Shown here piece by piece: positions 18,381 through 28,474 of a stretch of 64,000 nt of DNA. Position numbers and translations under genes: made by a program. The notes under the pieces were generated by a model that was given only the letters and a program-made list of their open reading frames with translations, did no database searches and was not told the origin of the DNA. Source of the DNA: Flavobacterium sp. YJ01 (GTDB taxonomy: Bacteria > Bacteroidota > Bacteroidia > Flavobacteriales > Flavobacteriaceae); NCBI RefSeq assembly GCF_029320955.1, contig NZ_CP119757.1:4278001-4342000 (forward strand), given 5' to 3'. Within the stretch, counting starts at the first letter, position 1. Each line of letters starts with the position of its first letter.

Positions 18381-18461
18381 TGGGGAGAGCAGGATTCGAA
18401 CCTGCGAAGTTCACACAGCAGATTTACAGTCTGCCCTCGTTGGCCGCTTGAGTATCTCCCC
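18381..18461 (-). tRNA. tRNA-Tyr (anticodon GTA)
   Basis: 81 bases on the minus strand. The acceptor stem GGGGAGA pairs with TCTCCCC and is followed by discriminator A. The anticodon loop reads gactGTAaatc, giving Tyr. There is a GGTTCGAATCC T-arm and a long class II variable arm as expected for bacterial tRNA-Tyr. CCA is not encoded. A good Bacteroidota promoter lies about 40 bases upstream and a terminator directly downstream, so this is a single-gene transcript. Confidence 0.97.
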
Positions 18462-25875: not shown

Positions 25876-26730
25876 ATGTTATTCCTTATATTAAGTATTC
25901 TTTGCAGTGTTATTGTTGGTGTTATATTTAAAATTTCAAGAAAATATAATGCTAATCCGTCTCAAATTATTTCATTCAATTATATAACTGCAATTGCACT
26001 TTGTTACTTTACTTTTAGTCCAAACCTAAATGCTTTAGATAATAATGCACCTTTAGAAATTTACGCATCGGTCGGAATTTTACTTCCAATCGTATTTTTA
26101 TTTCTGGCACTTTCTATAAAATTTATGGGAATTGCAAAAACAGATGCTGCACAACGATTATCGCTTTTTATTCCGATTTTGGCGGCTTGGTTATTGTTTA
26201 ATGAAGCATTTAATACCTGTAAAGTTATTGGTGTTTTGATTGGTTTTGCAGCACTTTTATTCATACTAAAAAAGCCAACAGACAATACAGAGAATAAATG
26301 GATTTATCCAGCAATGGTTTTATTGGGTTTCGGAATTGTCGATATTCTTTTTAAGAAAATAGCCTTGTACACCGTTGTTCCTTATACAACTTCTTTGTTT
26401 ATAGTTTTTTTAATTTCTTTCGCGGTTTCATTGGTAATCGTGATGTATAAATTATTCATAACAAAAGAAAATTTCGCTTTAAAAAGTATTCCTTTCGGGA
26501 TTTTGGTTGGAATTTTCAATTTCGGAAATATATTATTCTATCTAAAAGCACATAAAGCATTTTCAGAAAATCCATCGACAGTTTTTGCAGGAATGAATAT
26601 GGGTGTAATTATTTTAGGAACCATAATCGGCGCTTTTTTCTTCAAAGAAAAATTATCTAAGATCAATGTTTTGGGACTGCTTTTGGCTTTAATTGCGGTT
26701 GTTTTTATAGTTTTTTCGCAATTACAATAA
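25876..26730 (+). CDS. EamA/DMT superfamily transporter
   Basis: A 284-residue inner-membrane protein with about ten hydrophobic segments in two similar halves. Features of the drug/metabolite transporter superfamily are visible: the end of each half carries a short basic or aromatic motif (FNEAFNTCKVIGVLIGFAALLFIL, and FFKEKLSKINVLGLLLALIAVVFIV). The substrate cannot be predicted; amino acids, nucleosides or drugs are all known for the family. It is alone between a terminator and the dehydrogenase leader region. Confidence 0.85.
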   Translation: MLFLILSILCSVIVGVIFKISRKYNANPSQIISFNYITAIALCYFTFSPNLNALDNNAPLEIYASVGILLPIVFLFLALSIKFMGIAKTDAAQRLSLFIPILAAWLLFNEAFNTCKVIGVLIGFAALLFILKKPTDNTENKWIYPAMVLLGFGIVDILFKKIALYTVVPYTTSLFIVFLISFAVSLVIVMYKLFITKENFALKSIPFGILVGIFNFGNILFYLKAHKAFSENPSTVFAGMNMGVIILGTIIGAFFFKEKLSKINVLGLLLALIAVVFIVFSQLQ

Positions 26731-26837
26731 TTTTTTTTAAGTCGTAATTCTTTAGTTTACAGCTGTTTTAATTGATGGTTTAAAATTTATTAAAAATAAA
26801 CTCGACTAATTCTATAGAATTTATAAATATAATTTTG

Positions 26838-26845
26838 TAGCTTTG
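26838..26845 (+). promoter_or_regulatory. -7 box TAGCTTTG of the leader region
   Basis: An exact TAnnTTTG match. The expected transcript start is around 26850, just before the first mini-ORF (ATG 26854). The -33 element is weak. Confidence 0.6.
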
Positions 26846-26853
26846 CTTCAACA

Positions 26854-26943
26854 ATGAAAAACTATAGCCGAAATATTATGATGTCTTTCAATTGCAGCTT
26901 TGCGATGTGCTGCATGTTGAATCACGTTTTGAAATGGCGTTAA
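26854..26943 (+). CDS. Cys-rich leader mini-ORF 1 (29 codons)
   Basis: ATG 26854 to TAA 26943. The peptide begins MKNYSRNIMMSFN and continues CSFAMCCMLNH before a basic end (VLKWR). Cys codons are at 14, 19 and 20 (26893-26895, 26908-26913). It sits right behind a -7 box and is followed after 33 bases by an intrinsic terminator, the layout of an attenuation leader peptide. The product is probably not functional as a protein; stalling on Cys codons would be the signal. This is inference, but mini-ORF 2 has nearly the same Cys positions. Confidence 0.6.
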   Translation: MKNYSRNIMMSFNCSFAMCCMLNHVLKWR

Positions 26944-26976
26944 TAGAGAAAGTACTTGTTAGTTATTTTTTTTTTT

Positions 26977-27009
26977 AGCCTTTCATTGCACCATGAAAGG
27001 CTTTTTTTT
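26977..27009 (+). terminator. Intrinsic terminator/attenuator between the two mini-ORFs
   Basis: A perfect 10-bp stem AGCCTTTCAT/ATGAAAGGCT (26977-26986, 26993-27002) with a TGCACC loop, followed by a run of T. It lies inside the leader about 180 bases before the dehydrogenase start. Bases 26981-26988 (tttcattg) can alternatively pair with caatgaaa at the start of mini-ORF 1. Confidence 0.88.
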
Positions 27010-27030
27010 GAATCGTTAAAAAATCTAAAT

Positions 27031-27111
27031 ATGAGAACCAATAGAAATATGAAAATTTTGATGCGTCGTTGCTTGATAAAGATTCCGTGTTGTGTCAATT
27101 TTAAGAGATAA
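27031..27111 (+). CDS. Cys-rich leader mini-ORF 2 (26 codons)
   Basis: ATG 27031 to TAA 27111. It starts MRTNRNMKILMRRC and ends LIKIPCCVNFKR; Cys codons are at 14, 20 and 21. It lies after the terminator and 76 bases before the dehydrogenase start, and no second terminator follows. The shared plan with mini-ORF 1 (C14 and a CC pair about five codons on, basic end) is the main reason to list it. Confidence 0.45.
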   Translation: MRTNRNMKILMRRCLIKIPCCVNFKR

Positions 27112-27187
27112 AAGATGTAGAAAATCTTCTTAAGAGAAGAAAATCGATTAACATAAAAAAATAACCCAAACCTAAAAACTATATATT

Positions 27188-28474
27188 ATGAGTTCAGAAA
27201 TTATAAAACACAATCCGTTTCAATCTATGATTGATCGTTTTAATATCGCTGCAGATATTTTAAACTTAGACAATTCACTTCGTCAAAAGTTGCAGCGCCC
27301 AGAAAAACAAATCACTGTAAATTTTTCAATTGTTTTAGACAACGGAAACGTTCAGAACTTTGAAGGATATCGTGTTATTCATAATACAGCTTTAGGACCG
27401 TCTAAAGGCGGAATTCGTTACGATACTGCTGTAAATTTAGATGAAGTAAAAGCACTTGCCGCCTGGATGACCTGGAAATCTGCTGTAACTGGAATTCCTT
27501 TTGGTGGAGCTAAAGGCGGCATTATTTGCGATCCGAGAAATCATTCTAAAACAGAATTAGAAAAAATTACAAGAGCTTATACAAAGGCTTTATCAGATAT
27601 TTTCGGACCAGAAAAAGATGTTCCTGCGCCAGACATGGGAACAGGACCAGACGAAATGGGCTGGCTTATGGATGAATTTTCACTTTTGCACGGACGACCA
27701 ATTCATGCCGTTGTTACGGGAAAACATCTTCATTCTGGTGGATCTTTAGGAAGAGTAGAAGCAACAGGAAGAGGTGTAAGTATTATCAGTATTTTGGCGC
27801 TTCAAAAACTAAAAATTAGACCTGCGAGAGCAACTGCGGCAATTCAAGGTTTTGGAAATGTAGGTTTGCATTCTGCTTTATTCTTGTATGAAAAAGGAGT
27901 GAAAATTGTGGCTGTTAGCGATGTTTCGGAGGCCTTTTATAATCCAGACGGAATTAATATTCCGGAGTTGATTTTATATTATAATTTGAATAATAAAACC
28001 ATAAAAGGTTACCCGAATTCGGTTGCCATTAAACATGAAGATTTATTGCTTTTAGATGTTGATGTATTGATTCCTGCTGCAAAAGAAGATGTTATTACAC
28101 AGAAAAATGCGACAGATATTCAGGCAAGAATTATTGTTGAAGGCGCAAACGGGCCAGTTTCTTCAGATGCAGATCAGATTTTGCATGATAAAAATATATT
28201 AGTTGTTCCTGATATTTTAGCTAATGCGGGAGGTGTTACAGTTTCTTATTTCGAGTGGCTTCAAAATTCGCTTTTAGAGTCTTGGAGAATTCATCAGATT
28301 AATAAACGTCTGGAGGATATATTAGAAAAAGGTTTTGAAACTGTTTTTAGAGTGGCAGTCAAACATGATGTAACGCCTCGTATTGCTGCTTATATTATTG
28401 CTTTGAAAAAAGTAGCCGAAACACAATCGGTTAAGGAGATTGCTTTGGAAGCTCCTTTATTTAAGCATAATTAA
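27188..28474 (+). CDS. Glu/Leu/Phe/Val dehydrogenase, probably glutamate dehydrogenase
   Basis: 428 residues, the usual length for bacterial hexameric glutamate dehydrogenases. The N-terminal substrate domain shows GPSKGGIRYD and the catalytic segment WKSAVTGIPFGGAKGGI (about 98-114). The C-terminal domain has a Rossmann dinucleotide motif GFGNVG (about 221-226), and the family signature VEGANGPVS is present near 315-323. The enzyme interconverts glutamate and 2-oxoglutarate with NAD(P)H in the cytosol. Leucine dehydrogenase is shorter and less likely. It follows a leader with two mini-ORFs and a terminator, so nutrient-controlled expression is plausible. Confidence 0.92.
   Translation: MSSEIIKHNPFQSMIDRFNIAADILNLDNSLRQKLQRPEKQITVNFSIVLDNGNVQNFEGYRVIHNTALGPSKGGIRYDTAVNLDEVKALAAWMTWKSAVTGIPFGGAKGGIICDPRNHSKTELEKITRAYTKALSDIFGPEKDVPAPDMGTGPDEMGWLMDEFSLLHGRPIHAVVTGKHLHSGGSLGRVEATGRGVSIISILALQKLKIRPARATAAIQGFGNVGLHSALFLYEKGVKIVAVSDVSEAFYNPDGINIPELILYYNLNNKTIKGYPNSVAIKHEDLLLLDVDVLIPAAKEDVITQKNATDIQARIIVEGANGPVSSDADQILHDKNILVVPDILANAGGVTVSYFEWLQNSLLESWRIHQINKRLEDILEKGFETVFRVAVKHDVTPRIAAYIIALKKVAETQSVKEIALEAPLFKHN

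Follow-up and report, generated by a model that had tools for sequence, protein, structure and literature searches.

Organization of the leader region

The stretch of DNA analyzed here (the window) comprises 64,000 nucleotides from Flavobacterium sp. YJ01 (contig NZ_CP119757.1). Our subject is the region upstream of its gene for a Glu/Leu/Phe/Val dehydrogenase, where two short open reading frames (ORFs) rich in cysteine codons flank an intrinsic terminator and constitute a candidate transcription attenuator. The features of this locus are listed below in window coordinates.

26803..26818, no strand assigned: candidate operator, palindrome-like motif CGACTAATTCTATAGA, recognized by motif conservation across loci
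26830-26837, plus strand: second candidate -7 box, TAATTTTG
26838..26845, plus strand: -7 box TAGCTTTG (TAnnTTTG), a box present in 69/69 loci
26854..26943, plus strand: leader ORF1 MKNYSRNIMMSFNCSFAMCCMLNHVLKWR, 29 aa, Cys at 14, 19 and 20 (sensor Cys codons 26893-26895 and 26908-26913)
26930..26938, plus strand: 5' arm of the antiterminator, UGAAA(U)GGC = UGAAAUGGC, inside the end of ORF1, from predicted folds
26945..26972, plus strand: inner helix of the antiterminator, AGAGAAA (26945-26951) with UUUUUUU (26966-26972), from the predicted fold
26977..27009, plus strand: intrinsic terminator AGCCTTTCAT-TGCACC-ATGAAAGGCT followed by a T-run, its left arm (26978-26985) common to the antiterminator
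27031..27111, plus strand: leader ORF2 MRTNRNMKILMRRCLIKIPCCVNFKR, 26 aa, Cys at 14, 20 and 21 (Cys codons 27070-27072 and 27088-27093)
27188..28474, plus strand: Glu/Leu/Phe/Val dehydrogenase, most likely a glutamate dehydrogenase, 428 aa
28607..29830, plus strand: fatty acid hydroxylase family protein, 407 aa, possibly in the same operon by adjacency and family match

A first interpretation made from the letters alone (the sequence-only reading) had named the -7 box, both mini-ORFs with their cysteine positions, a 10-bp terminator, a gap of 76 nt between ORF2 and the dehydrogenase, and the dehydrogenase itself, and all of these lie where it had placed them. The 10-bp terminator hairpin spans 26977-27002 and is followed by T residues. 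A search of Rfam at the gathering score, including the Flavo-1 family, gave no match at the leader; the sole match in the window was a tRNA gene elsewhere (18381-18461, minus strand), unrelated to the leader. The gene directly upstream of the leader (25876-26730) belongs to the EamA family.

Conservation of the leader peptides

A BLAST search with the 350-nt region located the leader in 19 of 101 Flavobacterium genomes, the source genome counted; 23 genomes matched overall, four of them with short pieces only. A dehydrogenase of the window type (86-100% identity) was found in 20 of the 101 genomes, which are the 19 with the leader and one more, G004. Named GTDB genomes were also scanned for perfect copies of a 30-mer from the conserved core, which returned 64 stretches, titled Flavobacterium in 61 cases, 'Flavobacteriaceae bacterium' in two and '[Flexibacter] sp. 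ATCC 35103' in one. L060 is a locus of F. johnsoniae strain CI04. The combined set of 83 rows was reduced by 14 that duplicated others over the span from 60 nt upstream of ORF1 up to the terminator, leaving 69 distinct sequences, a number not to be equated with 69 species. Because retrieval by the 30-mer needed an exact match, the invariance of 26937-26966 is biased in the 64 stretches; among the 19 BLAST loci, which were not selected by the core, 18 carry the exact 30-mer and L022 has a one-base insertion. The dehydrogenase start lies downstream in 66 of the 69 sequences, the remaining three ending 29-197 nt past the terminator. In a draw of 397 genomes from the family, no close ortholog of the dehydrogenase appeared outside the genus at 1e-130, the three matching genomes all being of the same genus.

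The sequence-only reading had tied its proposal to an alignment of relatives, and in that alignment both the cysteine codons and the mini-ORF frames are conserved. The Cys-Cys pair of ORF1, counted from the stop codon, is present in 69/69 sequences, and both codons vary between synonyms (111 TGC and 27 TGT among 138 codons). Cys14 is kept in 66/69 and replaced by tyrosine in three. ORF1 is 28 or 29 codons long, with an insertion or deletion in its front part, and the distance from the Cys-Cys pair to the stop codon is constant in all 69. ORF2, compared over 68 loci, retains Lys17 and Ile18 in 68/68, Cys20 in 67/68 and Cys21 in 64/68. Variability is highest at third codon positions in two stretches, ORF2 (0.36 vs 0.14 and 0.14) and the right-hand portion of ORF1 (0.32 vs 0.23 and 0.16), and the contrast is weak over ORF1 codons 1-8 (0.157 at the third position vs 0.028 and 0.148). 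We read these patterns as selection on both frames that constrains the Cys codons more tightly than most others. A longer frame running through the T-run into ORF2 (open from 26956 to 27111 in the window) was considered as well and appears not to be coding, since by eye stop codons interrupt it in several loci and the length of the T-run varies. Searching the source genome with the ORF2 alignment returned only ORF2 itself and two weak matches (E 0.28 and 1.28).

Methionine directly precedes the Cys-Cys pair of ORF1 in 69/69 sequences and directly follows it in 66/69, which is a conserved peptide motif beyond the Cys codons and would suit a ribosome switch whose signal is something other than Cys-tRNA, such as arrest by an MCC(M) nascent chain or the action of oxidants or metals on the cysteines. 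We consider such a signal very unlikely, given that much of the remaining peptide drifts and that the residue after Cys-Cys varies in the related leaders described below.

Predicted competition between terminator and antiterminator

The end of ORF1, UGAAA(U)GGC at 26930-26938, is predicted to pair with the left arm of the terminator, GCCUUUCA (26978-26985), with the inner AGAGAAA:UUUUUUU helix added; this helix would explain the run of T residues located before the terminator. For the window, the predicted energy is -13.8 kcal/mol for the antiterminator, folded at the stage where the terminator still lacks its right arm, and -12.1 kcal/mol for the terminator alone. The antiterminator is predicted in 69/69 loci (45 distinct segments), at -12.5 to -17.0 kcal/mol versus -12.3 to -14.6 kcal/mol for the terminator, and 8 or 9 bases of the left arm are paired with the upstream arm in every one of them. 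When the upstream segment was shuffled with its dinucleotides preserved, 10 of 1000 shuffles folded as well and 31 of 1000 gave an equal duplex.

Variation within the arm points in the same direction. Five of the 69 loci carry an altered codon there (AGA in two and GAA, CGG and AGG in one each, giving K27R, K27E and W28R); in the three loci with AGA or GAA the pair is preserved as G-U, and CGG and AGG alter the bulged base alone. As all five variants change the amino acid and still preserve the pairing, conservation seems to act on the RNA and not on the peptide. The segment 26939-26965 shows zero substitutions in 64 aligned loci, a count biased by the exact-match retrieval, and its conservation would be explained by the antiterminator that occupies it. 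The spacer between ORF2 and the dehydrogenase has a mean identity of 41% to the window.

The sequence-only reading had paired the left arm of the terminator with the start of ORF1 instead. That pairing does exist (duplex of -8.0 kcal/mol); the alternative with the end of ORF1 is stronger (-10.9 kcal/mol) and almost invariant. The antiterminator formed with the ORF1 start, which by eye is also shortened where the hairpin loop differs, was set aside.

Promoter and putative operator

The box TAnnTTTG begins 16-17 nt before the ATG of ORF1 in 69/69 loci, and in the window it ends 8 nt before the ATG. We infer a transcription start near 26849-26852, a few bases before the ATG, and because of this position ORF1 may be almost leaderless. 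The sequence-only reading had held a promoter after 27010 to speak against its proposal. A search limited to this promoter type, as the exact box TAnnTTTG, found none between the terminator and the dehydrogenase in any of 66 loci.

This result bears on another explanation, also raised by the sequence-only reading, in which ORF1 and its terminator would be a gene of their own, for a small RNA or a small protein, standing by chance beside a dehydrogenase gene that is transcribed from a separate promoter. The core 26939-26965 is conserved beyond any coding need, the terminator is strong, and a peptide conserved in sequence could have its own function, all of which would fit a separate gene. However, the dehydrogenase start follows in 66/69 sequences without an exact TAnnTTTG in between (66/66), the antiterminator would account for the conserved core, and similar leaders precede metN and other genes. 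We therefore regard an independent RNA as highly improbable.

Upstream of ORF1, the motif AC[CT]A[AG]TTC[TG]ATAGA is present in 62/69 loci, and the other seven deviate by one or two bases. An exact 17-mer, TCTACTAATTCTATAGA, has 30 sites in 19 of 101 genomes, compared to none for a reversed-pattern control. By their neighboring ORFs, these sites comprise eight dehydrogenase leaders, 10 PhyH-like genes, seven serine acetyltransferase-like genes, one sulfatase and one TauE gene, and the remaining three lie near a SusC-type receptor, two of them also near a NarK-like transporter. Pfam and NCBIfam models were applied to representatives of the motif-linked genes. For the acetyltransferase, the score exceeds the EpsC cut-off by one bit and falls short of that of cysE (168 vs 211), and at L180 a cysteine synthase-like gene comes next. 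With up to two mismatches allowed, the source genome has 15 motif sites vs 10 in the reversed control, so its weaker sites are individually meaningless.

Taken together, the motif probably marks a sulfur regulon in Flavobacterium. One copy in the source genome, at position 1501 of L049 with two mismatches, lies upstream of an Rrf2 gene (986-1393) beside an O-succinylhomoserine sulfhydrylase-like gene; the nearest specific NCBIfam model of the Rrf2 protein is CymR, below the cut-off, and the sulfhydrylase-like protein scores 504 bits at a cut-off of 522. Our guess is that an Rrf2/CymR-like protein could be the regulator acting on the putative operator ACTAATTCTATAGA.

At all 10 PhyH-like sites, a short ORF with a run of 4-9 Cys codons lies between the motif and the gene. 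In the source genome this poly-Cys leader (e.g., MKNKFNFNKGQMHANMRMCCCCCC) precedes a PhyH-like gene with the motif just upstream (L030/L193, G000:C1:4216005), and by eye the L030 leader has no terminator. The same arrangement is found in the relatives L178, L179, L182, L183, L194, L197, L202, L204 and L206. A genome-wide scan for poly-Cys runs gave 65 matches. Inspection of 30 loci flagged four short ORFs (L118, L124, L140 and one common to L145/L146), none leader-like by eye; among the 35 further matches, three are the PhyH poly-Cys leader.

The operator also argues against the signals other than Cys-tRNA that were considered above, as it occurs before sulfatase and cysE-like genes and the related leaders have metN as a target, both of which point to sulfur supply. 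In addition, the poly-Cys leaders under the same operator at L178, L182, L204 and L206 have no methionine directly before the Cys run.

Related leaders and tandem arrangements

A sequence-only model of ORF1 and the core (R1) was searched over 398 genomes of the genus. It gave 74 strong matches (E <=3.5e-29), which were taken as the dehydrogenase leader and not each inspected. A second group of 40 matches between 3.6e-11 and 1.1e-3 was fetched, and 28 between 0.0016 and 0.05 were left out. The first downstream ORF of the 40 is metN in 30 cases, an EamA gene in five, a CpeT gene in two and a fatty acid hydroxylase gene in one (L242); two have no recognized gene (L245 and L246), L246 being also without a leader. 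One representative of each was checked: MetN passes its NCBIfam cut-off (546.6 vs 499.7), and EamA, CpeT and FA_hydroxylase pass those of Pfam. Among 38 related leaders analyzed, 37 contain Cys-Cys, and in 31 the terminator left arm pairs upstream over at least 6 bases; L221 does not do so with the usual arm. The source genome holds such a leader, with Cys-Cys and a terminator, before metN outside the window (G000:C1:4195544-4195695, L247/L248), with a predicted antiterminator of -6.2 and a terminator of -16.7. The CpeT/CpcT-family genes (L213 and L222) likewise stand behind a Cys leader with a terminator.

In the five EamA leaders (L207, L219, L223, L224 and L225), a second Cys-rich ORF lies between the terminator and the gene (5/5), the same tandem plan as in the dehydrogenase leader of the window. 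In G004, the dehydrogenase gene (L166) lies behind two modules, a degenerate ORF1 (MRNKSQNTIPYDCNTIMCYM...) with a terminator and then an ORF2 bearing several Cys pairs with another terminator. The second module has a predicted antiterminator of -10.4. This layout suggests that the dehydrogenase leader arrangement derives from two attenuators in series.

A structural model (R2), roughly calibrated, was run over 397 genomes of the family. It matched 129 of them at 0.001, mostly at what by eye are plain terminators, and these matches should not be taken as the distribution of the switch. Inspection of 27 loci from other genera found a short Cys ORF at the match in three, one of which is trusted (L259), as well as Ile-rich leader-like loci (L251, L253, L258 and L272). 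L259 carries two leaders ahead of an O-acetylhomoserine sulfhydrylase gene, first a Cys leader and then a Met-rich one, and both have a terminator; the antiterminator is convincing in the first module (-11.9) and predicted at -2.8 in the second. Two Ile/Val-rich leaders precede ilvE at L251 and L272, and one precedes an ilvD-like gene at L258. The genes at L259 and L251 pass NCBIfam cut-offs, and those at L272 and L258 were named by eye. The bulged shape recurs in the antiterminators predicted for L251 and L258, as GAGGAA(U)GGU. Tandem attenuators look like a flavobacterial habit of which the window holds the cysteine version.

Proposed attenuation mechanism

On the basis of sequences, their conservation, geometry and predicted folds, we consider it quite probable that ORF1, the terminator and the antiterminator constitute a cysteine-sensing, ribosome-mediated transcription attenuator of the trp type; the ribosome positions, the transcription start and the response to cysteine are deduced from them. 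A cysteine- or sulfur-responsive attenuator, as the sequence-only reading had suggested, is also the best reading of the conserved Cys codons and frames and of the lack of an exact TAnnTTTG from the terminator to the dehydrogenase.

The RNA would start just before ORF1. With ample Cys-tRNA, the ribosome would reach the ORF1 stop codon and cover UGAAAUGGC and AGAGAAA, allowing the terminator to form and transcription to end at about 27009. When Cys-tRNA is scarce, the ribosome would wait at Cys codons 19/20 (or 14), leaving the arm 26930-26938 free beyond its edge. The free arm would then pair with the terminator's left arm, with the polymerase proceeding into ORF2 and the dehydrogenase. ORF2 would serve as a second Cys leader, with its own terminator in a few species (a tandem attenuator), and the probable sulfur-regulon operator at the promoter would add control of initiation.

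The geometry is compatible with these steps. Taking the leading edge of the ribosome to lie 15-18 nt past the P site, a ribosome with its A site at Cys19/Cys20 would have its edge near 26920-26926, placing the arm 26930-26938 about 4-9 nt beyond it. With the same assumed footprint, a ribosome at the ORF1 stop codon would cover the RNA as far as about 26955 and so mask the two upstream strands of the antiterminator.

Several observations weigh against this mechanism. In the full leader without a ribosome, the terminator is the lowest-energy fold, and it remains so (-20.4) with the part up to 26921 removed, which mimics a ribosome at the Cys codons. Because the terminator wins in the complete fold, the proposed switch works only if the antiterminator forms earlier and then remains in place. 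The first module of G004 is without a predicted antiterminator of the window kind, and this, together with the fold with the 5' part removed, slightly lowers our confidence in the attenuator. The covariation test was neutral, with 88.5% of cells paired, one double change and 309 of 500 shuffles as good; it is uninformative because the left arm hardly varies, and the only double change (C-G for A-U in L223) is suggestive at most. The antiterminators of the metN-type leaders (about -5 to -10) are weaker than their terminators, and 7 of 38 related leaders are without pairing over at least 6 bases, making the switch less certain in this related group. Finally, a glutamate dehydrogenase has no obvious tie to cysteine metabolism. 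The metN and O-acetylhomoserine sulfhydrylase genes behind related leaders do fit the metabolism of the sensed amino acid.

Control could instead act mainly through ORF2, with Rho or translation of the dehydrogenase as the means and the ORF1 terminator in a minor role. ORF2 is conserved, yet a terminator-like hairpin after it is rare (2/66 below -4 kcal/mol and three more at -3.2 to -3.5), and the Cys leaders of Mycobacterium cys operons were reported, in the part of the source consulted, without terminator hairpins (PMC1262725). We judge this arrangement unlikely, since no part of the leader is better conserved than ORF1 with its terminator and antiterminator, and the 30 metN loci show one module, with no second Cys ORF noted.

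Downstream genes and a possible link to membrane lipids

The dehydrogenase belongs to the Pfam ELFV family, and its best PDB matches are named glutamate dehydrogenases (1b3b, E 5e-124). Its nearest NCBIfam models are also glutamate dehydrogenases, with scores below their cut-offs. The hydroxylase gene follows the dehydrogenase gene in 41/41 loci that reach far enough. The gap between the two genes contains a terminator-like hairpin in 14/41 loci and TAnnTTTG in 9/41, and the terminator scan lists none in the gap of the window; co-transcription is therefore likely in the window and not general. If the attenuator operates as proposed, glutamate dehydrogenase levels would increase under cysteine shortage, and so would those of the fatty acid hydroxylase wherever the two genes share a transcript.

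The adjacency of the hydroxylase, the homolog directly behind a Cys leader at L242, a weak resemblance to OlsE and reports on the lipids of F. johnsoniae lead to a further idea, in which two Cys leaders in series and a sulfur operator would form a sulfur-economy switch for membrane lipids. The only NCBIfam match of the hydroxylase is the ornithine lipid hydroxylase OlsE, at 55-59 bits with a cut-off of 475. The outer membrane of F. johnsoniae is described as dominated by ornithine lipids and sulfonolipids (PMC12045153), a title cited there reports more ornithine lipid in a sulfonolipid-deficient mutant (PMC12045153), and ornithine lipids are documented in this species (PMC4484230). Low cysteine would turn the operon on, glutamate would be supplied for ornithine, and the hydroxylase would modify ornithine lipids that replace sulfonolipids. 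We hold this idea to be doubtful.

Comparison with known attenuators

The trp, his and ilv attenuators combine adjacent sensor codons, an intrinsic terminator and an antiterminator that has its 5' arm at the stop codon of the leader. The window leader resembles them in its leader ORF, adjacent sensor codons, terminator and predicted competing antiterminator arm at the stop codon. It differs in its Cys sensor codons, in the long U-run before the terminator that is part of the predicted antiterminator, in the two leaders in series before one gene and in the combination with a probable sulfur operator.

In work cited as Canestrari 2020, polycysteine leaderless short ORFs (sORFs) are said to be cysteine-responsive attenuators of mycobacteria. 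As far as that account goes, the window leader shares with them a short ORF with adjacent Cys codons placed ahead of sulfur genes, cysteine as the proposed signal and possibly a near-leaderless start. Unlike those leaders, for which no intrinsic terminator is described and Rho is proposed, the window leader has a strong intrinsic terminator and a predicted antiterminator; it also belongs to another phylum, precedes a different set of genes and uses Cys-Cys in place of longer Cys runs.

Cys leaders have been predicted in Actinobacteria, those of Mycobacterium being without terminator hairpins in the portion of the report considered (PMC1262725). Within the same family as the window, leader attenuation is suspected before amino-acid biosynthesis operons of F. 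psychrophilum (PMC9723704), and the Ile-rich ilvE and ilvD-like leaders found here share the bulged antiterminator. The parts of that study considered describe no cysteine leader, and 'glutamate dehydrogenase' is absent from its main text. The searches made of open-licence papers brought up none on the window leader.

The mechanism proposed for the window leader would be of an established type, here in a new form that senses cysteine, is often tandem and lies under a probable sulfur operator. If so, Bacteroidota would have a cysteine-sensing attenuator equipped with both a terminator and an antiterminator, within a group that includes metN leaders, and the leader would offer precise bases to mutate and an example of two leaders used in series. 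It also points to a possibly undescribed sulfur regulon in Flavobacterium and to an unexpected link from cysteine to glutamate dehydrogenase.
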